NCBI RefSeq assembly: GCF_000003815.2
Contig: NC_049983.1
Location: 1,238,546 to 1,302,545 of the forward strand
Source of the DNA: Branchiostoma floridae
Lineage: Eukaryota; Chordata; Leptocardii; Amphioxiformes; Branchiostomatidae
Length of the DNA stretch: 64,000 nucleotides
Reading direction: 5' to 3'
Part shown: positions 8,733 to 53,400 of the stretch, piece by piece
Layout: each line of letters begins with the position of its first letter
Numbering within the stretch: position 1 is the first letter of the stretch
Translations under genes and position numbers: made by a program
The notes under the pieces: model-generated
Seen by the model: the letters and a program-made list of their open reading frames with translations, nothing else
Told to the model about the DNA's origin: nothing
Database searches by the model: none

Positions 8733-11700
8733 ATGGCTCCAGTCCGGGCCCTGATAGTCGGTGCAGGGAACAGAGGAGAGGTGTATTCAAGGTTCTCCCT
8801 CGACAACAGTGAGCGTTTTCAGGTGGGTTACAGAACAACATGGAACAATCACCTGTATACAAAATGTACAACCATATCATCCCGATCCTCTATCTTGTAT
8901 TCACGTATATACAAACAGCTTAGGTTAGGAATGTCCCAGATTCAGACTTATAGCCATATTTGAGGATAGTCACACCTCAGGAATGTTACATTTCTTCAGG
9001 TGTGACTCTCCTCAAACATGGGACCTCTGGCTTTATCATTATGTGGAAGGTCACACTTACATGTATAAAAAAGAGTCATGGGTTCACCCCAGTGTGAGTG
9101 GTTCAATTACTTTACAGTCCTGCATACCTATGGCTTTTGCGTACCTATAGCCTCTGCATGCCTATAGCTTCTGCATGCCTATAGCTTCTGCATGCCTATA
9201 GCTTCTGCATGCCTATAGCTTCTGCATGCCTATAGCCTCTGCATGCCTATAGCTTCTGCATGCCTATAGCTTCTGCATGCCTATAGCTTCTGCATGCCTA
9301 TAGCTTCTGCATGCCTATAGCCTCTGCATGCCTATAGCTTCTTTATGCCTATAGCTTCTGCATGCCTATAGCCTCTGCATGCCTATAGCTTCTGCATGCC
9401 TATAGCTTCTGCATGCCTATAGCTTCTGCATGCCTATAGCTTCTGCATGCCTATAGCTTCAGTACAAATTGTTGTATTAGGCCTAAAGGCGGTTCGTCAA
9501 TTATGAAAAACAAGCAAAAGAGCTGCAGCATCAATTGGAAATACTGCATGCGCATCAGCTCCCTAGCTTCATTTTAAATTCTTATTTTCCATTCTTTTTC
9601 TCCCAGCTTTTGGAGAACATGAAATGATGTGTTTTTTTTTCTTTCATTCTGCAGGTGGTTGGTGTTGCTGACCCGCAGCTGTTCAGGTGCCAACGTTTAC
9701 AGCAGCAGTATAACATTCCTCAGGAGAATGTCTTCACAGATAAACCACACGTTACATTGTGTAACACCTGGTTGAATTCAATATATTGATAAAAGTAGAT
9801 CCATAAGATGGGAGATTTGTAATGACCAAGATGGATTCTCACAGAAGAACCATGTTATTATAAGTGAACAGCTGTTCTAAGAAGAACTTATAACTGTTCT
9901 TCGAAGAACTCATAACTATTCTAAGAAGAACTTATATACAGTAATATGTTTCTGCTAGAACAAAAATATGGTGCTGTAAGTTTATAAAAAGCTATCATAA
10001 TAAAAAAACTAGAAAGGCCGACATTTGCTTGAGAGCAAATACAGCATATTTCAGCCATCTCCCTCCTTATGTAACAATGGTTCTCCTGTCAGTTCGACAG
10101 ATGAGCAGGCAGACAGGCATTACCTGTTTTGCCTGACCTGCACATGACTTTTTATGGTGAAGGAGGGGCGTGCAATTCCTTCTCCACCCTCTCGTCTACT
10201 GGAGCACTAAGTCTCACAGGGACAGAACTGTTTGACACGTGTGAGACGGCTTCAGCAGATGCAGCTTTGTTTTTCGGAGTATCCGTCTCCTAGGAGGACT
10301 TCCGACCAAGGATGTAAGGGGTTCCTCCTGCCCCGTGTGCCATGGCGGGTGTGTCATGCCCGAACATGCCCCTAAGGCCTGTCTCGGCCACAAAGCCCCG
10401 CCAAGACCACTAGCCGCAGCTAGATACTCATTTACACCTGAGTTAAGTGAGGAAAGTCGTGTAAAGTGCCTTTCCCAAGGGCACAAGATCGGTGACACTG
10501 CAGTCGGATTCGAACCCGCAACCTCTCGGTCTCGAGCCGAATATGCTACCACTGCGCCACGCGGCCCCACTGTATGTAACAATAGACTGTTCCAAAATCA
10601 CTCATGTGCAAAAATGGAACACTTCTGCTTAAAATGACTTCTAACTACTAATCACACTTATGAGCAAAAATGAATCTTACAAAAACCCCTTCAAGAATGG
10701 ACTCAAAAAAATAGACGACTCCAAAAACACTTCCGCTAAGAAATGGAATTTGGAATCATCAGCCGTCCAAAACCATATTTGCAAAAAATCCCCCCTCTGT
10801 GCAAGAATCGACTCTTCCTGTTATACCCCTATGTAAAGTGGAGCGATCCAAAAATATAGCTAAAATAGTCAGCGAAGTCCACCAAATGAATTTTAAAAAA
10901 ATACCCCCTTCGNNNNNNNNNNNNNNNNNNNNNNNNNNNNNNNNNNNNNNNNNNNNNNNNNNNNNNNNNNNNNNNNNNNNNNNNNNNNNNNNNNNNNNNN
11001 NNNNNNNNNNNNNNNNNNNNNNNNNNNNNAAAAAAGTCCCCCGTGCATGAATGGGCTCTTCCAGATAAAACAAGGCTTGCTGATTGGCTGCCGAATCCTC
11101 CTCATGTACAGTCTTCAGGTGGAGGTAAACTTCCATTTAACAAATGGAATTCGGAATCATCACCCATGTCCAAAACTGATTTTTTTTAAATCCCCCCCTA
11201 TGTGCAAAAATGGACTGTCCCAGTAGTAGTCAAGTGGATCAGTGCGAAAACACTTCCGCTCAAAAAAACATTGGCATTATCACCAAAGTCTAAAAGTAAA
11301 TTTTAAAATACACCCCCTGTCCAACAATGGACTCTTCCAGCAAAATAAGCTCGCTCATTGGCTGGCCATTAATTGGATTCACCTTGTCCACCAACCACCT
11401 GGATGTCTATGGACTAGGTAGGTAGGTAGATAATTAGATCTACCTGGCACACCTGTGGCCCTGACACACCAGAATGACCTAGAGGTCGTTGACCTCGGCA
11501 CTCCAACCTTACCTATCCTAAACTCTCCCACAAAAACCTCCTTAAGGAGCCATTTTGATTTATACTACATATTATACATGGATCCTTTGAATAAGTATCT
11601 AGGGCACCTCTGTGCCAAATTTCAGGTCATTTGGATGTAATACCATGGTACAGGGGGCCAAAATATACAGTCTTGGTCCAAAAGTTGCAATAAAACCTCA

Positions 11701-12511
11701 ATAAAATCATTTAAGGAGCAGATATGAAAAAATTAAAAAAAACACATTTGGGTATTGGCCCACTCTACCCTTGTGCCAAATTTCAAGTCATTTGGTCCAG
11801 AAACGGCGGAGATGAATTGCTTTGAAAATTTGACAGGAGAAAGAAAGAAAGAAAGAAACATTACGAATACAATATATTTCACCATACCTATGGTATGGCT
11901 GAAATATAACAAGGCCTTCATGGAATAATGTTTGTTATGACTGTCAACTTATGCACACCTCCCGCAATTTATGCACACCTCCCGCAACTTATGCACACCT
12001 CCCGCATGTCCAGACTGGCAGCAGGCGGCGGAGAGGGAGAAGTTTGCCGACTGTGTTGTCATAGCAACCCCAGACCAGCATCACAAGGCTCCCGCCGTGG
12101 CGTTCGCTGACCGAGGCTACCACATACTTCTGGAGAAACCCATGGGAGTGCGTGGAAAATAAATTTTGTTTGACAGTAGCAAAAGAGAGGAGACAAGGCG
12201 ATCAGAGATGGCATACTTCAGACCCTTACCCATACTGCGTTGTAGCCCCAAAGACAAAAATAGCAGCACTGAGATATTGGCAATGCTGCATTGTGTATAT
12301 TGAAAAGCACTCACACACACATAGGTACACACATGCACAGACACACACAGAGATACACTGGCAGATACACACATACACCGATACACACAGAGATAAACTG
12401 GCAGATACACAAATACACCGATACACACAGACATACACACAGATACACACTTACTGTACACAGATACACAGATACACATATAGACACAGACACACACACA
12501 CACACAGAGAT

Positions 12512-12545
<34 letters not shown>

Positions 12546-15500
12546 ATACATATAACACACACACGCACCTTTATTCGTGGGGTAACCTAAATCTATTGTT
12601 TTTCGAAATAAATATTGACAGAAGATATTAATTTTCAAATTGCAAGATATATAAAAATGTTGAAAATATTGTTACCGTTGCTGTTGCATTTCCAGGTTAC
12701 AGAGTCAGATTGCCGTGAGATCGTGTCAGCCTGTGAGAGGAACAACGTCATCCTGTCAGTGTGCCACGTCAAATATTGTTACTGTTGCTCCTTACAGGTT
12801 ACAGAGTCAGACTGCCGTGAGATAGTGTCAGCCTGTGAGAGGAACAACGTCATCCTGCCAGTGTGCCACGTCAAATATTGTTACTGTTGCTCCTTACAGG
12901 TTACAGAGTCCGACTGTCGTGAGATAGTGTCCGCCTGTGAGAGGAACAACGTCATCCTGTCAGTGTGCCACATGAAATATTGTTACTGTTGCTCCTTACA
13001 GGTTACAGAGTCCGACTGTCGTGAGATAGTGTCCGCCTGTGAGAGGAACAACGTCATCCTGTCAGTGTGCCACGTCAAATATTGTTACTGTTGCTCCTTA
13101 CAGGTTACAGAGTCAGACTGGCGTGAGAAAGTGTCAGCCTGTGAGAGGAACAACGTCATCCTGCCAGTGTGCCACGTCAAATATTGTTACTGTTGCTCCT
13201 TACAGGTTACAGAGTCCGACTGTCGTGAGATAGTGTCCGCCTGTGAGAGGAACAACGTCATCCTGTCAGTGTGCCACATGAAATATTGTTACTGTTGCTC
13301 CTTACAGGTTACAGAGTCAGACTGCCGTGAGATAGTGTCCGCCTGTGAGAGGAACAACGTCATCCTGTCAGTGTGCCACATGAAATATTGTTACTGTTGC
13401 TCCTTACAGGTTACAGAGTCAGACTGCCGTGAGATAGTGTCCGCCTGTGAGAGGAACACTAGTGTCATCCTGTCAGTGTGCCACGTGAAATATTGTTACT
13501 GTTGCTCCTTACAGGTTACAGAGTCCGACTGCCGTGAGATAGTGTCAGCCTGTGAGAGGAACAACGTCATCCTGTCAGTGTGCCACGTGAAATATTGTTA
13601 CTGTTGCTCCTTACAGGTTACAGAGTCCGACTGCCGTGAGATAGTGTCCGCCTGTGAGAGGAACAACGTCATCCTGTCAGTGTGCCACGTGAAATATTGT
13701 TACTGTTGCTCCTTACAGGTTACAGAGTCCGACTGCCGTGAGATAGTGTCCGCCTGTGAGAGGAACAACGTCATCCTGTCAGTGTGCCACGTGCTGAGGT
13801 ACTATCCACCTGTCAGGAAGATCAAGGTCAGACAACCTTCAATGTTGTAAAACAGTTATTGCAAGCTCGTTTAAATCCTAAAAGATTGAAAGGATCCCAG
13901 ACACACTTTGTTGCAGTCCCCATGGTTTTTATTCTTCTTACCCTCTGTCCTCCACACACAACCTTCTTCTCTCAGGGTTGCTTCCAGACATAATGACCCT
14001 GTCCCCTGCCCCCTCCCCCTAATCTACTTCCTCCCAGCCAGGGATGATCCATCATACATCTGGGGAAAGGAAGTCAAGTCACATCTTGGGAAAGGAAGGG
14101 GAGACCACTTTGGCCATGCATTTTTTCATACACTAACTACTTACTATTCTAAGCATACAACGCATACAACAAGTCACCACTGTGAATTATCATGTTCGGT
14201 CTGATGTTCGTATTATTGAACATTGTCCTAATTTTTGTAGGAACTGATTGACAGTGGAGCCATTGGAGACATAGTTCACATCCAGCACATGGAAGCAGTG
14301 AGAACTATTTCTTTTTCATTTATATCCTAAGCTTGTAGTTTTACCTATTGAATAAGTTTAAATCATGTCTACTTCTATATAATGTGATATTTAGTATGTG
14401 TGCAATAGCTTTCCATGTATACATGTAGTATTACAGGTAACGCTAGTTCACATTTATCAGCAGGGTAACATATATTTTTCGTTGTTTCTAAAAACAAGGT
14501 ATTTAGCAATATCAAGTCAACAGTCGATCGTTTCAAACTGCATTATTTAAAAAAAAATCACAATCTGAATCCACCGGCCAAAGACAAAAACTACAATGGA
14601 TATAGGTCCACCCCGCACCCCCCGAATAAAGGTGAACTAAGTAAACGTTACACCCACTAACAGATTTCAAGTTTAATTGATTGTTTGATTGAATGTTTGT
14701 TTGATTGATTGATTGAATATTGATTGACACAGGAATTCCAGGACACAGGAATAGTGCTTACCTTTCTTACCCAACTCCCAGGTGGGATTCTGGCCCTTTC
14801 CACATGCCTTTGTACGTGGAAACTGGAGAAAAACTGACGACAGTAGCTTCTTGCTTCTCATCAAGAGCTGCCACGATGTCGATCTTATTACGTACTGGCT
14901 CCCTGAGTCAAGGTTAGATTCATAATGGCTGCTTGCTTGTATTAATGCCATGTTGGAACTACTAGTTAGTAACAAACGCCTGAACACAAAGACCATGGTA
15001 CCAACAGATTCTTTATTTTTCTTCTTTCACAATTCATTTTTTGATTTTGAAAGACTTTGCTCCAGATTCAAAATAAATTTTGTTAAAAGCGCAAGTCGGC
15101 AACAAAATCTGTACATTTTATGATAGGAAAAAAAGGTTTGAATGACATTAGTATCTGCCAATGGCCTTCTTGCATTATAATAATAGTAATGCTTTATTTG
15201 CCAGAAGCATTTCGCAGCCTTTCGGCTGAATTGTACACTCCTTTCACATGAGAATCAAAGACATGGAGTCAAAAACTGACTATTTGAAATATAATTAATA
15301 ATACAACTGGTAAAACACTATACTATACATGAAATGTACAGCCATTAGTTTATTTAAAGTATAAAAGTATTTAAAATACTATTGACATGATTTACCACAA
15401 TAAGATGAGCACAACGTTCCAAATGCTTCCTAATCTTGACCATTTTACATTGGCGGTCGATACAATACAAGAACATTAAAAGATTTAAAATTTGATGGGG

Positions 15501-18500
15501 TTTTCATTTACATATCAACTTAATAGAAGTGTTGTACATCATATAACTATGGTCGCGCTTGCAGCATTACTGTATTATTTACATTATGTTGGCATAAATC
15601 ACTTTTGGAAATGGACGAAAATTGATGCACCTTTGAGTGTCATCCATATTAAGTCAAATCAGCATGGCCCAATATGTTATGAATACTCATTGATAATTCT
15701 CCTTTACTGACTCGAAACTGGTGGAAGTCATGGAGGGCAGCAGCTGCTCACTTCTCTCCAAAAGCTGTCACGATGTTGACCTCATACGCTATTGGCTCAG
15801 TGGTGCAAGGTTTGGTGCTGGATGCTTGTATGCCTGCCAAACTTTCCAATGTTCAATTTATAAGTCATTATGTCAAGGGGAACATTGTTTTTGGTGTGTT
15901 CTTCTTGGCTTCTATCCTCTTCTTACGTAATGAACTAATCAGAGTTTCAAACTGCAAGTGGCATTTTAGCTGTTTCAGCAAGTAGGAACAATGCAGCGGT
16001 TGTTACAGTGAATATGAATGAATATAACCTGTAAAAGAAAAGTACCAAATTGAGCTTTGTGGACTTTTCTATTGGTGATGCCTCAAAGTCAAGCCCAATT
16101 TAGTATTGTGTGTAAATATCTTGATAAAAGGCAAATTATTGGGAATGTTGCGCTTCCAGATGAACTTACCATTTTCCCAATCACATGTATGTTCCCAAAT
16201 GTGTTTCGTTTTCGTTTTCATTACACAACTTCCTTTTAATTTTTCCGTAAACGTTTCGACGACTGTCTGTAGCCTTCATCAAAATTCTGTACTGATAAAG
16301 GCGACAGATAGAACTTTTAATTCCATGTGATTGTCTATTTATACAGGTGTGTCAAGGTGTCCTCCTTTGGCAGTCTCATGCACTTCAGGCACGAGAACAA
16401 GGTAAGAGTCACGTCGTTCAACTATCGTGCACTATATACTACATGTAACGGCAGTTCACCTTTCTCCGCATGGTAACCTATATCCGTTGCTTTTTAAAAC
16501 GCGATGTTTAGGTATATCTAGTCTACGTTGGTTTCAAATTGCAATATTTTCATAGCATTCCCGTCTGAAACAGCCGTCTGTCGAATTGATATCCCTAAAT
16601 ACTCCGATTTTATATACAACGGATAACGGTTACCCCAAGGATAAAGGTGAAGTACCGTTATATACAAACAGCAAATTTCCAAAGTACATGTGGGAAGTGG
16701 AAAGCTTAATAATGTATGCAGAATATTTTCCAGACATCTTTCGCTATCTTCAGGATAAAAAAAAGAAACAGTCATGGACACTAGAGCCATATAATAGTGG
16801 ATTGCTTACGGCTGTCACCTGACAGAAACCTTCACTGCAGATTAACATACATTGAAGATTATTGGTCTTGCAATAATGTAACAAGCAAGACGGAAGTTTT
16901 TTTACAACATGTAGTTTCCTTCCAGCCCGCAGGTGCAGCCAGCAGGTGTCTGGACTGCCAGGTGGAGAGCACCTGTCCTTACTCTGCCAAGAAGATCTAC
17001 CTGACGAGGGTGGAACAGGTGACATTACATACTTTTACAGGGCTTGAAATACCACCTGCATATGCAGGTTAGTGCAGGTAAGAGTTGGGCTGTGCAGGTA
17101 TAATTCTGACGCCTACCTGGACCTAACCTGCACCAGACTTTTGAGACTTGTCCTTAAGCTTGTAACTCCTATACATACTGCGGCATGTGAACGCTGCTTT
17201 ACTTTATAGAATGCACCAAAACAGCCTGGCAGTATTTACTATGTTCAAAAAGTTGCTTTATCCTCTTTTGGGATATAACGTTACATTATTTGAATGGTAC
17301 AGGTAACATTTTCTGGTACAGGTAATTTCAAAGGTTTTTGAGCCCTTTTTTAACACTTTAGGGTCTTGGAAGTAGTGTCACTATATTTAAAAGGTCTGAT
17401 TGGCAATTATCACTTGCTGACATGAAGCTATAATTTACCCCTTAGGACAAGGTTTATCACTTTAGCTACTTTTTCTAGTGTTTGTGATGGGCTGTCTCCA
17501 GCTTTAATTTTGTTTCATTGTTTTGGGACCCTTCATGTTCATTTTCATTGCTAAATCTGTCATTGATCTTTAGCCAATGAAAATATATTTTCATCAATTT
17601 TATGTAATGAAGTTCCAATTATTTGGATGGATGGGGTAAAATGTTAGTCTGTCTCAACAAAGGGATGTACATCCCTGCAGGATGGAGTGACGAGGTCTGG
17701 AGACATGTATACCGCTAGCACCGGTTTGTAAACCTTTTCTGATACTCTTTACAATTACCAGGCTGCCAGCCTTTTTAGCTTTATGTCAAAAGCTGAAGAA
17801 ACAATGGTTACAGAGTCGAATAAAGCAATTGTAAAAAAGCTGGCACCAGACTTTACAAAGCTGTGAAGAAAGAAACCAAGAGATGGTGTTGAATGTTGCA
17901 GATGATTAGTTAAGCAGACTTTATTTTTTTTAGGGAATAACGGGCTGGCCAGTCAGTGTAGTGTGTCCTCAGGAACCGGTGGATGTGGAGAGTCTAACCG
18001 AGGCTCTGAGAACTGGACCGTACGGACGTTGTGTGTACGAGTGCGACAACGACGTTGTTTCCAATCAGGTACATTCTGCTATTAACGACCTTTTCACATG
18101 TCCCAGTGGTACAAGTAGTAACGAAACCCCAATGCTTGGCCATTTGGATCAAATTCTGTGACCTGTGGGTCCAAGTAGGATCCTATAGTCGACTTCAGCT
18201 AAGACATGTTGTAACTTGTAAGGAATTACATTTGTCATTTTGGATGGTGACCTAAAGCAGGCGGGCTTGTGTATGCAGAAGCTTCAGGTGTAAGCCTCAA
18301 GTGTCAAACCTCTGCACGTAAAAGAATCCAACACACGTATCAAGAATTAGAAGAGTAAGCGATGACCAAAGTGTGCTTGGCCAAAGCACAAGCCGTTAGA
18401 GCAAAGCCACATCACACATAAAAAGCGGCATGCAAAGCCGATTTGAGCTTTCATGATTAAACAAACTTTAAGGTTTAAACAAACAAACAAACAAACACTA

Positions 18501-41054: not shown

Positions 41055-41830
41055 TTCCAAACATCCTCAACAGAACCCCGAGGTTTTGTCTCTAACACGT
41101 TAACATGTCTGATACACTATAACATTATCCACAGAACCCTGAGGTTTTGTCTCTAACAGGTTAAACATGTCTGACACATTGTAACATTCTCCACAGAACC
41201 CTGAGGTTTTGTCTCTAACAGGTTAAACATGTCTGACACACTGTAACATTCTCCACAGAACCCAGAGGTCTTGTCTCTAACAGGTTAAACATGTCTGACA
41301 CACGGTAACATTCTCCACAGAACCTTGAGGTTTTGTCTCTAACAGGTTAAACATGTCTGATACACTATAACATTCTCCAAAGAACCCAGAGGTCTTGTCT
41401 CTAACAGGTTAAACATGTCTGACACACGGTAACATTCTCCACAGAACCATGAAGTTTCCTCTAACACGTTAACATGTCTGATACACTATAACATTATCCA
41501 CAGAACCCCGAGGTTTTGTCTCTAACAGGTTAAACATGTCTGACACACTGTAACATTCTCCACAGAACCTTGAGGTTTTGTCTCTAACAGGTTAAACATG
41601 TCTGACACACGGTAACATTCTCCACAGAACCCAGAGGTCTTGTCTCTAACAGGTTAAACATGTCTGATACACTATAACATTCTCCACAGAACCCAGAGGT
41701 CTTGTCTCTAACAGGTTAAACATGTCTGACACACGGTAACATTCTCCACAGAACCCTGAGGTTTTGTCTCTAACAGGTTAAACATGTCTGACACACTGTA
41801 ACATTTTCCACAGAACCCCTCAGGCAGTTT
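41055..41830. repeat. 62-bp satellite array, block 1 (about 12 copies)
   Basis: The unit is 'acattctccacagaacccagaggtcttgtctctaacaggttaaacatgtctgacacacggta' with alternating variants (ccagaggtc / ctgaggttt). Units with the two variants tend to alternate, suggesting a 124-bp higher-order unit. Confidence 0.95.
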
Positions 41831-44800
41831 AAGGCATGTGACAATTTTGATCGAACATGAAATTGGAACCACTGCGTGACCGCATGTGACCTTGACGGAC
41901 CGGACGGTCCAATGTCAGTATCTAATGTTACATTGCGAAAACAGGAACGTACGTTGCATGGGTCACACTAAATACTTTTCTTGAGACTTATTAATGTTGA
42001 ATATTAAAGATATTGGCCTAGTATTTATCAAATATTGATATAACCAGTTGCGGTTAATAAAAAGGGACCCCCGTGAGAGCCACTTATGGTACCGTCCGAA
42101 CATTCGAACACGCGTTCGGATTCCCCGGGTATAGAGTGGCGGGAAAACAACGGGGCGCGCATACTTCAAGGAAACAGCAAAATAATGCTAAAAATCGATA
42201 TTTCTAGCCCATAATGATTGTATGGCAGTTGACTGATGCCTTACAAGGCTAACTGCTTGCGAATTTCGCATTTATACAGCAGCGATTTGACAGATACAGG
42301 CATATATGAAACATTCATGCTTTACCATCGGTTAACGTTACGTACAGTGAAACATACTTTGGCGCAGTTCTTGTAGGGTAAGTATTGTTTCGTCGGCTGC
42401 TGCCCACATCAGGATACCGGTTGTACGACGAGTTTTGAGCCGATTTACGTTCATTTAGCCTTAGACCTTCGGAAATCAAGCGGGCCTTCTTGCAATATCT
42501 TTGATTTTGGTTGCTGTGTTGATATTAGTACAAAAAATGCCCCAAAATTATCAAAAAAGTATGTTTTTGCCCCAAAATAAAGCCTTACCGATGTATAGCG
42601 GCAAAAGGCCCGGGCACATTAGATATCACAGAGATGTAATCTGTTACTCCAGAAAATATGACTCTGTTAGACAGTCATTTCATAGTGGGCACAGACCCGT
42701 TTTAATAGCATCACTATTTTTTATCAAAAAATGATTTTTTAACCCAAAATATTCAGAATCTAGAATTTTCTTGTCATCTAATTTTGAATATGGGTAAATT
42801 ACGTCAACTGGCCCTACTTTGTTGAAAACTGATGGTTACATCGAAAGTTACAGCCATATAACTGCTAGACTGAAGTATATGCGGGTGTCACAGGCCTTAA
42901 ACTGCTTGAGCCTGAGGTTTTGTCTCTAACATTTTAAACATGTCTGACACACTGTAACATTCTCGACAGAAGCCTGAGATTCTGTCTCTGACAGGTTAAA
43001 CATGTCTGACACACTGTAACATTCTCCACAGAAACCTGAGGTTTTGTCTCTAACATGTTAAACATGTCTGACACACTGTAACATTCTCCACAGAACCCAG
43101 AGGTCTTGTCTCTAACAGGTTAAACATGTCTGACACACGGTAACATTCTCCACAGAACCTTGAGGTTTTGTCTCTAACATGTTAAACATGTCTGACACAC
43201 TGTAACATTCTCCACAGAACCCAGAGGTCTTGTCTCTAACAGGTTAAACATGTCTGACACACGGTAACATTCTCCACAGAACCCTGAGGTTTTGTCTCTA
43301 ACAGGTTAAACATGTCTGACACACTGTAACATTTTCCACAGAACCCCTCAGGCAGTTTAAGGCATGTGACAATTTTGATCGAACATGAAATTGGAACCAC
43401 TGCGTGACCGCATGTGACCTTGACGGACCGGACGGTCCAATGTCAGTATCTAATGTTACATTGCGAAAACAGGAACGTACGTTGCATGGGTCACACTAAA
43501 TACTTTTCTTGAGACTTATTAATGTTGAATATTAAAGATATTGGCCTAGTATTTATCAAATATTGATATAACCAGTTGCGGTTAATAAAAAGGGACCCCC
43601 GTGAGAGCCACTTATGGTACCGTCCGAACATTCGAACACGCGTTCGGATTCCCCGGGTATAGAGTGGCGGGAAAACAACGGGGCGCGCATACTTCAAGGA
43701 AACAGCAAAATAATGCTAAAAATCGATATTTCTAGCCCATAATGATTGTATGGCAGTTGACTGATGCCTTACAAGGCTAACTGCTTGCGAATTTCGCATT
43801 TATACAGCAGCGATTTGACAGATACAGGCATATATGAAACATTCATGCTTTACCATCGGTTAACGTTACGTACAGTGAAACATACTTTGGCGCAGTTCTT
43901 GTAGGGTAAGTATTGTTTCGTCGGCTGCTGCCCACATCAGGATACCGGTTGTACGACGAGTTTTGAGCCGATTTACGTTNNNNNNNNNNNNNNNNNNNNN
44001 NNNNNNNNNNNNNNNNNNNNNNNNNNNNNNNNNNNNNNNNNNNNNNNNNNNNNNNNNNNNNNNNNNNNNNNNNNNNNNNNNNNNNNNNNNNNNNNNNNNN
44101 NNNNNNNNNNNNNNNNNNNNNNNNNNNNNNNNNNNNNNNNNNNNNNNNNNNNNNNNNNNNNNNNNNNNNNNNNNNNNNNNNNNNNNNNNNNNNNNNNNNN
44201 NNNNNNNNNNNNNNNNNNNNNNNNNNNNNNNNNNNNNNNNNNNNNTTTTTATCAAAAAATGATTTTTTACCCCAAAATATTCAGGATTCTAGAATTTTTC
44301 TTGTCATCTAATTTTGAATATGGGGTAATTACGTCAACTGGCCCTACTTTGTGAAAACCTGATGGTTTCATCGAAAGTTACAGCCATATATCTGTTAGAC
44401 TGAAGTATATGCGGGTGTCACAGGCCTTAAACTGCTTGAGCCTGAGGTTTTGTCTCTAACATCTTAAACATGTCTGACACACTGTAACATTCTCGACAGA
44501 AGCCTGAGATTCTGTCTCTGACAGGTTAAACATGTCTGACACACTGTAACATTCTCCACAGAAACCTGAGGTTTTGTCTCTAACATGTTAAACATGTCTG
44601 ACACACTGTAACATTCTCCACAGAACCCAGAGGTCTTGTCTCTAACAGGTTAAACATGTCTGACACACGGTAACATTCTCCACAGAACCTTGAGGTTTTG
44701 TCTCTAACATGTTAAACATGTCTGACACACTGTAACATTCTCCACAGAACCCAGAGGTCTTGTCTCTAACAGGTTAAACATGTCTGACACACTGTAACAT

Positions 44801-46400
44801 TCTCCACAGAACCCCGAGGTTTTGTCTCTAACAGGTTAAACATGTCTGACACACTGTAACATTCTCCACAGAACCCAGAGGTCTTGTCTCTAACAGGTTA
44901 AACATGTCTGACACACGGTAACATTCTCCACAGAACCTTGAGGTTTTGTCTCTAACAGGTTAAACATGTCTGACACACTGTAACATCTTCACAGAACCAT
45001 GAAGTTTCCTCTAACACGTTAACATGTCTGATACACTATAACATTATCCACAGAACCCTGAGGTTTTGTCTCTAACAGGTTAAACATGTCTGACACATTG
45101 TAACATTCTCCACAGAACGTTAAGGTTTTGTCTCTAACAGGTTAAACATGTCTGACACACGGTAACATTCTCCACAGAACCATGAGGTTTTGTCTCTAAC
45201 AGGTTAAACATGTCTGACACACGGTAACATTCTCCACAGAACCTTGAGGTTTTGTCTCTAACAGGTTAAACATGTCTGATACACTATAACATTCTCCACA
45301 GAACCCAGAGGTCTTGTCTCTAACAGGTTAAACATGTCTGACACACGGTAACATTCTCCACAGAACCCTGAGGTTTTGTCTCTAACAGGTTAAACATGTC
45401 TGACACACTGTAACATTTTCCACAGAACCCCTCAGGCAGTTTAAGGCATGTGACAATTTTGATCGAACATGAAATTGGAACCACTGCGTGACCGCATGTG
45501 ACCTTGACGGACCGGACGGTCCAATGTCAGTATCTAATGTTACATTGCGAAAACAGGAACGTACGTTGCATGGGTCACACTAAATACTTTTCTTGAGACT
45601 TATTAATGTTGAATATTAAAGATATTGGCCTAGTATTTATCAAATATTGATATAACCAGTTGCGGTTAATAAAAAGGGACCCCCGTGAGAGCCACTTATG
45701 GTACCGTCCGAACATTCGAACACGCGTTCGGATTCCCCGGGTATAGAGTGGCGGGAAAACAACGGGGCGCGCATACTTCAAGGAAACAGCAAAATAATGC
45801 TAAAAATCGATATTTCTAGCCCATAATGATTGTATGGCAGTTGACTGATGCCTTACAAGGCTAACTGCTTGCGAATTTCGCATTTATACAGCAGCGATTT
45901 GACAGATACAGGCATATATGAAACATTCATGCTTTACCATCGGTTAACGTTACGTACAGTGAAACATACTTTGGCGCAGTTCTTGTAGGGTAAGTATTGT
46001 TTCGTCGGCTGCTGCCCACATCAGGATACCGGTTGTACGACGAGTTTTGAGCCGATTTACGTTCATTTAGCCTTAGACCTTCGGAAATCAAGCGGGCCTT
46101 CTTGCAATATCTTTGATTTTGGTTGCTGTGTTGATATTAGTACAAAAAATGCCCCAAAATTATCAAAAAAGTATGTTTTTGCCCCAAAATAAAGCCTTAC
46201 CGATGTATAGCGGCAAAAGGCCCGGGCACATTAGATATCACAGAGATGTAATCTGTTACTCCAGAAAATATGACTCTGTTAGACAGTCATTTCATAGTGG
46301 GCACAGACCCGTTTTAATAGCATCACTATTTTTTATCAAAAAATGATTTTTTAACCCAAAATATTCAGAATCTAGAATTTTCTTGTCATCTAATTTGAAT
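41815..46400. repeat. Macro-repeat: three near-identical copies of a 1.1-kb spacer with 62-bp satellite blocks
   Basis: The 1.1-kb spacer starts 'cccctcaggcagtttaaggcatgtgac' at about 41816, 43344 and 45428. It is followed each time by the same sequence (for example 'gaacattcgaacacgcgttcgg'). The second copy is interrupted by N 43980-44245, and the third runs into N 46401-46500. Satellite blocks at 42905-43345 and 44440-45427 separate them. The spacers encode identical short ORFs (68 and 77 codons) of no recognisable kind. Confidence 0.9.
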
Positions 46401-47458: not shown

Positions 47459-50400
47459 CTACTCGGGTTTGGTAGTGGCGCTGGCAGCCTTGTCCTTTCC
47501 CCAGAGCTCAAAAGAATAGTTGTCAATACCTGAAATAAAAAGCATGTCGAACAAAACACATCGAATCAAAGAAAAGAAGAGAAATAATTCGGAGATGGAA
47601 TGACCAAATGCTCATTATCATAATGCAACTGTGGGGAAATTAGAGTTCAATCGCAAGATCTGATCTACAATGCTTGAAAAATCTTTTGTGGACAATCGAC
47701 ATCAACTGTCGCCATCAAAACGTATGCATGGTTTAGCTTTTCTGTTGCCTTGCTAAATTAACAAGCAGTCTTTAAACTGTGTCTTACACAGATTCTGTTA
47801 GGCGCATAAATATCGTTCTGACCGTAACGATCCTCGGCCTGCTCCTTGGCGTCACGTCCGCGTCTCTTCCTCGCCAGGAAGGCAGCAGCAGCCACCAGCA
47901 GGACTCCGGCTATTCCCGCAGCTGTGCCCACAGCGATGCCGACAGTGGGGAGGGGGATGGCTGGGGAAACACACAGACATCATGTTCATTATAACATTAT
48001 ACCGACTGCTACCTGACTGTGTACTAGTGTGCTCCGGCTATCCCCGCAGCTGTGCCCGTACCGATGCCGACCGTGGGAAGGGCAACGGCTGAGGAAACAC
48101 ACAGATATCATGTTCATACTGTCTACTCTCCTGACACATAATGCTCATAATGTCAGCTACCTGACACATCATGTTAATACTGTATTCTCTCCTGACACAT
48201 CATGTTCATACTTTCCATTCTCCTGACACATCATGTTTATGCTATCCACTCTCCTGGCACATCCTGTTCATGCTGTCTACTCTCCTGGCAAATCATGTTT
48301 ATGCTGTCCAATCTCCTGACGCATCATGTTCATACTGTCTACTCTCCTGACACATCATGTCCATGCTGTCTACTCTCCTGACACATCATGTCCATGCTGT
48401 CTACTCTCCTGACACATCATGTCCATGCTGTCTACTCTCCTGACACATCATGTTCATACTGTCTCTCTCTCCTGGCACATCATGTTCATATTGTCTACTC
48501 TCCTGGCACATCATGTTCATACTGTCCACAATCCTGACACATCACGTCCATGCTATCTGCTCCTCTATTGTCTACTATAGTGTGCAGTATCAGCACATGC
48601 AGAATTGTACTAGATACTGGACTGTCCTCATCATGGAAAAGATGATATGTGACTAGAAAACTTTCTAAAAGCTTTGAATATGAGATGACATATTCCTGTT
48701 AGTAAAAGCAACAGAACATATTATGGTTAGACGGTCACCACACACTCTATTTGTATTAGAGTGGCACCTTCCTTATAAACAAATGCTATAGCTACCTTCT
48801 TCTTGTGCATTCACAACTTTGAAGGGCCCCTGGGTTATGGTCGTTATGCGGTCCCTTTCGCTGGCACGTCGGACTCGGGCCTCGCTCAGGTCGGACACAG
48901 CACGCCTTCGCCGACTGGGTGAGATGCAGCCCTGACTGCACCGCGAGTCCGGGTCGCTCTGGAAGCAGACCACCATGGTGCAATGGATGTACACCTGCCA
49001 TCGAGGAAAATGTAACATCTTTAGGAATCTGGCACACCACCGTGGGTGTAGTGTCCCCACCAATGACTCTATTGGCTGACAGCTAGCCCTGCCACCACCC
49101 GAGTAATGACTCCCTATTGGTTGACAGCTAGCCCTGCCACCACCCGAGTAATGACTGCCTATTGGTTGACAGCTAGCCCTGCCACCACCCGAGTAATGAC
49201 TGCCTATTGGTTGACAGCTAGCCCTGCCACCACCCGAGTAATGACTGCCTATTGGTTGACAGCTAGCCCTGCCACCACCCGAGTAATGACTGCCTATTGG
49301 TTGACAGCTAGCCCTGCCACCACCCGAGTAATGACTGCCTATTGGTTGACAGCTAGCCCTGCCACCACCCGAGTAATGACTGCCTATTGGTTGACAGCTG
49401 GTCTGCCACCACCCGACCAATGACTCACTATTGTTTGACAGCTGGCCTGCCACCACCCGATCAATGCCTCCCTATTGGCTGACAGCTAGCACTTCCCACC
49501 ACGCGACCAATGACTCCTAAATGGCTGACAGCTAGCCCTGCGACCAATGACTCTCTATTTTACCAGACTGGGATCGTCAATGTCGGGGAAGTGAAAGGAC
49601 TGGATGGAGTAGTATAAGGCCATGTCGTTAGACCGATCTGTGTCTAGCTGAAGCGTGGTGTCGACGTCGCACCTACAGAAGAGAAACTATCGTGAATGCC
49701 ACAGAATAATGGTCTACTGGCCAATCGTACAACGGCCTAGCGGATGCGTTGTGATCATATCGCGCATACAGGACAGAAGTTATTTTTAATGCCACAGAAT
49801 TTACTGTCCTATTTTACAACAGCAGGCTCTTTACTGATTTTACTGAGATGTTTTTAACTGAGAACATTTGTGTTAAACACACTGCTGTTTCCATCTTCTA
49901 ACAAATTTATACCTTCGATGTAAGGAGTTTGACATCAATTCAACACTACATAGAAACCGAAATAAAACTAACCAACTAACTAACTAACCCGTCATGGATG
50001 ATTCTGACACTCGGAGAGTCGTCAGGGTCGGTACTGGGCGTGGCGAGGCAGCGGAGAGCGAACAGCTCCAGGCCGTTCAGAGGTGACGTCACGCTCAATC
50101 CGAAGTGCAGCTTGTCAGATGAAGTCACCTATCCATGCACAAATAAAGGAGAAAACAATAAAATAGACGTATTACATTGGAAGAGGGACAAGTCAGGGAA
50201 AAGAGTGGTTACAATATTTGTAACTAAACAGCATTACGATATTCATTACTTTCCAGCTGGTTTGTACACAAGACGACAATGATATTTTGCACTTGACGAC
50301 AAGAAGACAGATTGGCAAACACTGCTCTAAAAAAAAAACTAAAAACAGCACACCTGCATAGGGTAGTCGTCTGAGTCATATGTCGCAGTGAAGTCTGACG

Positions 50401-53400
50401 ATGTAAACATGTGCATCTCAAAGGTGAAACTGTTTTCCGCGTCCACAACTTGCACACTGTAAACATAGATAAACTATGTGGGCAACTATACAGATAACTT
50501 AATGATAAGTGGGGAACTGTTATGGTCTGACTAGAAACATGGGTTAAGACTTTCAATGTGAATATTAAGCCACGGTCACAAGAATCGTACGACGTCATTG
50601 CGATGGCATATTCCGCATATCGCACGATGATCGCAGTGAATCGCAGGTGAATCGTAATCAAAATCAGCCATCGCAGAGCATCAGATGATGTTAAAAAAAT
50701 TTTAAGCGTCGTGCGATTTTTCACTTGTGTCTCTTCTCAATAGCCGAATGATCGCTTTTGTGGTTCTTTAAGCAACCAAATGTGGACCTAGCTGTTAAAT
50801 ACCTTCCTACAATGTCTTTCACTGTAGAAACAAATTAAAAGAAACCATAAGAACATGATTCTACAAAGGTTCAAATCAAGAACAAGTACGAGGCAATATA
50901 AGCATGGTTATCTCAGCCTTCTTGCTGGCTCTACGAGTCAAGCTTTTTCGAAAATCATATTTTGCTTTTTTGTGATGATATGCTATCCAGAAAAAGAGAT
51001 GCCATCAGACAAAAATTATATCATAAGCATTACGTCATTAGCCTGCCTTTCTGTTCGAGTTTTCCCCATGGTTACAGTCATGTGGTAATCTGACCCGAGA
51101 TTGGCGAGAGACCCACGAATATGTAGCCATCAAACAAATGCATGCATCACCTGTGCGTGATACTGAATCTAATCTGGGCCTAACTAAAGAATGAAACTAG
51201 AAGCTAGAGTCCCATCAGTTATTTTGTACTGACGGTTAAGTTAGCACCGAATTGCAACATCTGTTGACATTTGAAGTGCCCTTCCCTTCTCTGTGAGACA
51301 ACTTAATGACGGAGGAACTTACCGAGGAGACGGGATGTTGTAGAGGATCGCCCTCCTCTGTGAGACCACGTACTAACGGAGGAACCTTGCAAGGAGACGG
51401 GATGTTGTTGAGGATCGCCCTCCCCTGTGAGACCACGTACTGACGGAGGAACTTACCGAGGAGACGGGATGTTGTTGAGGATCGCCCTCCCCTGTGAGAC
51501 CACGTACTGACGGAGGAACTTACCGAGGAGACGGGATGTTGTAGAGGATCTCCCTCCCCTGTGAGACCACGTACTGACGGAGGAACTTACCGAGGAGACG
51601 GGATGTTGTAGAGGATCTCCCTCCCCTGTGAGACCACGTACTGACGGAGGAACTTACCGAGGAGTCGGGATGTTGTAGAGGATCTCACTTCCATGTGAGA
51701 CCACGTACTGACGGAGGAACTTACCGAAGGGCGGGATGTTGCAGATGATCTCCCTCCCTTGTGAGACCACGTACTGACGGAGGAACTTACCGAGGAGACG
51801 GGATGTTGTAGAGGATCTCCCTCCCCTGTGTGACCACGTACTGACGAAGGAACTTACCGAGGAGACGGAACCACGTACTGACGGAGGAACTTACCGAGAA
51901 GACGGGGTGTTGTAGGGGATCTCCCTCCCCTGTGAGACCACGTACTGACGGAGGAACTTACCGAGGAGACGGGATGTTGTAGAGGATCTCCCTCCCCTGT
52001 GAAACCACGTACTGACGGAGGAACTTACCGAGGAGACGGGATGTTGTAGAGGATCTCTCTCCCCTGTGAGACCACGTACTGACGGAGGAACTTACCGAGG
52101 AGACGGGATGTTGTAGAGGATCTCCCTGCCCTGTGAGACCACGTACTGACGGAGGAATTTACACCGGAACCTCTTGCTGAAGGGCGTTCCTCTCACGGCT
52201 CCGTTGTCAGTCGTCACCTGACTGGCGATTGCCACGTTGGTGAATATGAATTTGTCCGCTTCTGATGACTGAAAACAGGGAGAAATAAAAAAAAAAAAAC
52301 TTTCTAACAACCAGAAACCCTCTGTCATGAACTGCTATCGGAAAATATTTTAGCCATAGACATTCGCCACTTTTGACCTTTTCCCACCTTTTTGACTTAC
52401 CAGTTTGCTCATGATTAGTGCAAGGCCACATGGACCACTTCCGGATACTGAACTATCTCAGATTTTCCAGAAAGCTACTCACATCCTGAATGGTCCCGCA
52501 GTCCTGCAGACCTGCCCGCAGAGTCACATCCGTGTCTGTAACTGTCGCGCGGCATCTGGCGTCTAGCATGTGCATGTTGTCCACATCTACCGCTGGTAGC
52601 GCCGCTCTGGGGAAGGTCACGACCATGTAGTTCTCATGACATTCCACGTTTACGATAACCTCAGCTGAAAAAAATATCAATGAATCTCACTGAGCATGTT
52701 ATGTGCAAAATCAATACCTTGATGGTGGTCCTGAGAACAAATTTACTAATAATTACCAGGTCTCAAATCCATGCCAGAAATATGTGAAAAGTCTTGCCCG
52801 AAAGCTTCACGCATTGGGCTTTAACATTATTATGGACTTATGATCTTAACTCCTCGTAAGTCCTACCTTCAATTCAGCCTTTAGCTGCTATTGCTGGACT
52901 TAATCGTTGCTCAATAAACTATTGATGATACATGCATCCCATTGTATCAGAACAAACGGAGACTGTAGTCTTTGTTCAGTCAGTAACATTGAGAGATATA
53001 AGTCTTCCTACACCCACGTCCCATGACTGACCAACCTGTTGTCTCGGTCCCACTGATCTCTCCAACTTCCTGGTCGCCATCTCCAAACGCCGTCAGGGTG
53101 AAGGTGTACTCTGTGTCTGCCCACAGTCCGGGCACGGTGGCCAAGGTGTCGCCCGGGGAGGGCGGGGGAGACAGGTCCTGGTGCGAGGCCCCGGCGTGAC
53201 GATAGCGCAGCCGGTACCGGGTTATATTCAGGTCAGCAGACGCCGTCCAGGACAGGGTCATGTAGTCCATCCCGACATCGGTAAAGACCAGGTCAGAGAA
53301 GCCTGTTGAGTGATAACAAAGAATATGCCTTGTGATAACAAAGAATATGCCTTGTGATAACAAAGAATATGCCTTGTGATAACAAAGAATATGCCTTGTG

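Follow-up and report, generated by a model that had tools for sequence, protein, structure and literature searches.

Mirages, as described in amphioxus, are tandem duplications of exon-intron boundaries, and are known from Adh3 and from the globin genes BflGb6 and BflGb9 (PMC3087553, where the Adh3 case is credited to Canestro et al. 2002). In BflGb6 the repeated unit carries an acceptor together with the start of an exon, and the number of copies differs between two haplotypes (PMC3087553). Further mirages occur in lancelet PGBD5, in which repeats of 60 and 108 bp lie at splice sites (PMC3902484). The Adh3 data and the authors' own RT-PCR, as presented in the relevant passages of PMC3087553, suggest that regular splicing is undisturbed by mirages, and the corresponding passage of PMC3902484 gives the Adh and troponin C (TnC) mirages as producing no aberrant mRNAs.

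Here we describe an array (hereafter array A) in a stretch of 64,000 nucleotides of Branchiostoma floridae DNA, the window, to which all positions refer except where another locus is named. Like the published mirages, array A is a minisatellite-like tandem duplication across an intron-exon boundary, and like BflGb6 it has the acceptor and the exon start within its unit. Unlike them, its unit is 102 nt long, it is in frame and it comprises ten extra copies; moreover, this type of array is common to three paralogous genes, two of which have acquired different frame-breaking changes. Two other systems invite comparison. Intron gain by Rogers-type AGGT duplication likewise involves a within-gene tandem duplication carrying splice-site sequence (e.g. 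PMC4974935), although array A duplicates an existing boundary and shows no new intron. NAGNAG acceptors also provide in-frame acceptors in series, but these lie three nucleotides apart (as outlined in PMC2951375), whereas the acceptors of array A are 102 nt apart, each with an exon fragment. Among the matches listed in a limited set of papers on amphioxus minisatellites and mirages, there was no report on this gene.

Array A would be a clear addition to the known amphioxus mirages, and it permits a comparison within one genome, with three paralogs that carry the array, one that does not and, as controls, the arrays of other genes. This makes it possible to test how the spliceosome chooses one acceptor among many that are nearly identical, and whether a working exon refreshes such an array.

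Results

The host gene, a Gfo/Idh/MocA oxidoreductase and probably metabolic, lies on the forward strand and begins with exon 1 at 8733..8822. Its joined exons match the GFO_IDH_MocA Rossmann domain (PF01408) over residues 5-126 (E 4.9e-22), and the best match in the PDB is 6z3b (E 7.4e-19). Nine exon translations match three paralogs in the same order, so that the gene does not resemble a pseudogene. In one paralog (D, locus L010), the match to exon 8 contains an in-frame stop, and this paralog may be damaged or misread there. Exon 3 (12013..12147) ends in the EKP motif (EKPMG) and is followed by the donor GTGCGT at 12148. Intron 3, taken to the first, distal acceptor (...GCATTTCCAG), covers 12148..12695 on the same strand, and exon 4 proper, 108 nt long, occupies 13719..13826 on that strand with the donor GTCAGA at 13827; the junction from the end of exon 3 to exon 4 is in phase 0.

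As the first-pass annotation of this DNA had described, an acceptor and exon start are repeated eleven times in this oxidoreductase gene (12696..13826), with the exon frame open. Units start at 12696, 12798, 12900, 13002, 13104, 13206, 13308, 13410, 13515, 13617 and 13719, giving seven spacings of 102 nt, one of 105 nt and two more of 102 nt, which makes nine of 102 nt in total. A tandem-repeat row (TRF) for the same region (12693-13793, period 102, 10.8 copies) has a score of 1993, the highest among the 55 rows of the window; since this top score was reported independently, the array is not a chance resemblance. Ten tandem partial units (12696..13718, forward strand) precede the exon; in each, 75 nt from the start of exon 4 (78 nt in unit 8) are followed by an intron end of 27 nt that carries the acceptor ...TGTTGCTCCTTACAG. 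The units thus span the exon-intron boundary, which is the defining property of a mirage, and they are most likely intronic. Unit 8 (13410..13514, forward strand) owes its 105 nt to ACTAGT in place of one AAC, and this insertion of three nucleotides is the sole indel of array A.

All eleven copies begin GTTACAGAGT, and CAG|GTTACA is found at each of the eleven unit starts. Across the 27-nt intron part, one sequence is shared by the acceptors at the ends of units 1 to 10, and the end of unit 10 is itself the acceptor of the real exon 4; the exon-side sequence, too, is nearly alike at all eleven acceptors. Past the shared acceptor side, what tells exon from unit is CACGTGCTGAGG in exon 4 and CACGTGAAATATT in a unit. 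Our comparison of units recovered the copy sharing reported earlier: units 2 and 5 have Pro in common, and units 3, 6 and 7 have Met. The repeated unequal exchange proposed on that basis gains support from the identity of units 3 and 6, the relatedness of units 2 and 5, and a copy number that differs among the three paralogous arrays.

A genome search with the DNA of array A found four places. Besides the window locus (A, ten extra units), these are paralog B at C5:2.76 Mb on the same contig as A (five extra units; spacings 102, 102, 95, 102 and 102 nt), paralog C at C5:1.17 Mb on that contig in the other strand (two full extra units, preceded by a piece whose own acceptor has been lost; spacings 104 and 102 nt), and paralog D on another contig, C14, where the exon is present with no array. 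Unit borders in B and C are the same as in A, and in B and C the two breakpoints of the duplication share GTG. Copy number differs among A, B and C, a comparison of paralogs and not of alleles of one locus. Substitutions common to units of all three arrays are seen in the unit alignment, and in a unit tree of 21 rows (the acceptor-less piece of C being left out) the units of A, B and C mix and are not cleanly separated by gene, with no inner branch reaching the program's mark for firm support. Both the shared substitutions and the mixing would be compatible with an array that predates the duplications of the gene, or with conversion at a later time.

With regard to reading frame, the earlier claim that no stop interrupts the exon frame was borne out: ten of ten upstream entries of array A read open into exon 4. 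Paralogs B and C each contain a frame-breaking unit, of 95 nt (-7) and 104 nt (+2) respectively, and a shifted frame that runs into a stop follows from three of the five upstream entries of B and from one of the two of C, the remaining entries being open. Two of the three arrays, therefore, are not frame-neutral, by way of two different indels, and the maintenance of reading frame across homologous arrays, which would characterize a functional alternative-acceptor array, was not found in B and C. Frame-breaking units are the type of evidence that the first-pass annotation had named as telling against protein variants, and they occur here in paralogs B and C instead of in alleles.

To place array A among other boundary arrays, we considered 32 loci (9 globin and 23 ADH_N, families chosen for their published mirages), leaving out array periods below 12. 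Arrays of period 12 or more overlap the matched exon at 3/32 loci, a figure that is no genome estimate, as the sample is small, some loci lie close together, and L057 and L069 hold the same array. L052, an ADH_N locus by Pfam that we liken, as an assumption of ours, to Adh3, has arrays at both ends of one exon, at locus positions 1122-1526 and 1712-2035, with periods of 59 nt on the acceptor side and 33 nt on the donor side. L069, of ADH type, has spacings of 143, 145 and 147 nt; and L050, a globin locus, has three extra units with spacings of 154, 158 and 158 nt and resembles haplotype 2 of BflGb6 as that haplotype is described in PMC3087553. All three upstream entries of L050 meet a stop, as do all three of L069; since the distance to the exon is divisible by three for two of the entries of L069, the reading is broken there by stops and not by spacing.

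Within the window itself, the reverse strand carries a donor array at 51323-52162, in which the end of a ZP-N exon (PF23344) and the donor GTAAGT are repeated in about twelve copies, mostly as 67-nt units, with one spacing of 37 nt, one of 66 nt and a changed donor in one unit. A two-copy acceptor duplication, its copies 128 nt apart, lies on the same strand at 47960-48097, at a transmembrane-like exon perhaps of the same ZP gene; this exon starts with CC. In the other minisatellites of the window (11 stretches inspected by eye), no clear exon boundary was found inside the units. The seven arrays have periods of 102, 158, 59, 33, 143, 67 and 128 nt; two of these, 102 and 33, are multiples of three, a share of 2/7 that is as chance predicts.

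Differences among units were compared with the consensus. In array A, 6/11 coding differences are synonymous, the +3 indel of unit 8 adding two apparent substitutions to this count, where a share of 0.26 would be expected (P 0.04). Paralog B gives 4/6 (P 0.04); paralog C was left out, its row having held a spurious first copy (start 351). The excess is stronger than that of A in L050 (9/13, P 0.0005) and L069 (10/15, P 0.0006), the ZP donor array shows none (6/19, P 0.38), and the two arrays of L052 offer too few sites (1/1 and 0/4). Translation of the units was considered as the cause of the excess and rejected, given the greater strength of the excess in L050 and L069, where every upstream entry is stopped; for the same reason, the excess in array A is not evidence of translation. 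A simple account would be that the real exon, in which most past changes were synonymous, has served as the template for units. Arrays of this kind caution against taking an open frame or a synonymous excess as proof of translation.

Differences from the exon grow with distance from it in array A (rho 0.67, P 0.019) and in array B (rho 0.95, P 0.033), and in L050 they number, nearest first, 4, 4 and 11, from three units only. No significant trend was found in the ZP array (rho 0.29, P 0.21, one unit of 66-nt spacing left out), and in L069 there is no rise with distance (9, 10 and 6 differences; 9/86 sites in the nearest unit versus 6/80 in the farthest). Copying at the exon end, then, does not hold for every array.

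Discussion

We regard array A as very probably a mirage, an intronic minisatellite that spans an intron-exon boundary, has in part been seeded from the real exon, and leaves the acceptor before 13719 as the one normally used. A first tandem duplication of 102 nt, comprising 27 nt of intron end and 75 nt of exon start, would have made the unit, probably before the three paralogous genes separated; the array may then have grown and shrunk in each paralog by slippage, unequal exchange or conversion, with sequence of the real exon being copied into it. Since the acceptors of units 1 to 10 do not differ within the 27 nt of intron end, a stronger site in that stretch cannot be the reason for choosing the last one. 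Splice sites are commonly recognized across the exon (exon definition), which predicts use of the acceptor before 13719: as the sole acceptor 108 nt from the donor of the exon, it would be selected in this way.

The first-pass annotation had offered two readings of the array, a neutral VNTR that is frame-neutral by chance and a source of protein length variants; the former is favoured by our results, and the latter is weak in view of the frame-breaking units of B and C, which provide the strongest test, the periods of the other arrays and the mirage papers. The frame neutrality of array A is less striking than it appears, being mainly one frame-neutral event and not ten, since a single first duplication of 102 nt sets the frame for all later equal copies. 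In the window, on both strands, 1483/2175 stretches of 27 nt ending in CAG are open in the frame that ends at that CAG; with one random duplication in three a multiple of three, and 0.68 of these stretches open, the chance of frame neutrality is about 0.23, roughly a one-in-four outcome of the first duplication.

Several features nonetheless speak for an alternative to the mirage reading, in which the use of eleven alternative acceptors would lengthen the enzyme by 0 to 10 blocks, each of 34 or 35 residues, inserted after EKP. All ten upstream entries of A are open, its only indel is +3, the ten units all end in the same acceptor part, and the synonymous excess, taken alone, fits translated units. 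Array A is also the only one of the three that is fully in frame, and low-level use of its other acceptors would keep the frame. Weighed against these are the frame-breaking units in B and C, the stronger synonymous excess at loci where every upstream entry meets a stop, and the apparently undisturbed splicing of published mirages (in the passages of PMC3087553 and PMC3902484 noted above); each block, furthermore, would insert residues into the Rossmann domain, directly behind the conserved EKP, with presumable consequences for the structure. We consider such a set of variants improbable, and hold it equally improbable that some transcripts of A enter distal acceptors to form an isoform ladder of 34 or 35 added residues per unit.

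Recursive splicing is still less probable. Every unit would here be a GT...AG intron removed stepwise at the CAG|GT junctions, with zero-length exons or as Rogers-type AGGT introns, and it is in keeping with this that CAG|GTTACA stands at all eleven starts and that the real exons of the acceptor arrays in L050, L052 and L069 also start with GT. Compared with the donor consensus GTRAGT, however, GTTACA looks poor; GT is a common start among the exons of the host gene (2, 4, 6 and probably 7), so that no enrichment is shown; and it is CC that begins the acceptor duplication near 48000. An enrichment of AG|GT at acceptor mirages was itself dropped as a candidate, given the frequent GT starts of the host gene and the one acceptor duplication starting with CC.

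That misassembly inflated the copy number is comparably improbable: an N gap lies in nearby sequence, PMC3087553 reports a globin mirage whose assembly in the draft genome was aberrant, and the exact number of copies may be misassembled, but diagnostic substitutions separate most units, and their structure recurs at three genomic places.

Additional observations

A 20-nt repeat of 3.1 copies (11945-12006) forms the intron end immediately 5' of the exon 3 acceptor; in paralogs B, C and D, it was not seen within the 80 bases that precede exon 3. Exon 6 of the host gene is duplicated (14782-14913 and 15714-15810), as it is in paralogs B and C. The copies in B and C are both complete with acceptors and are candidate mutually exclusive exons; the second copy in the window gene is without an acceptor and without the first part of the exon. 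Adjoining the two-copy acceptor duplication is a 31-nt minisatellite (48107-48562). Finally, three arrays of 62-nt units (41060-41818, 42911-43346 and 44441-45430) have right flanks that are identical over 300 bases, and probably represent a single dispersed or mobile repeat, present in several copies, that contains a minisatellite.
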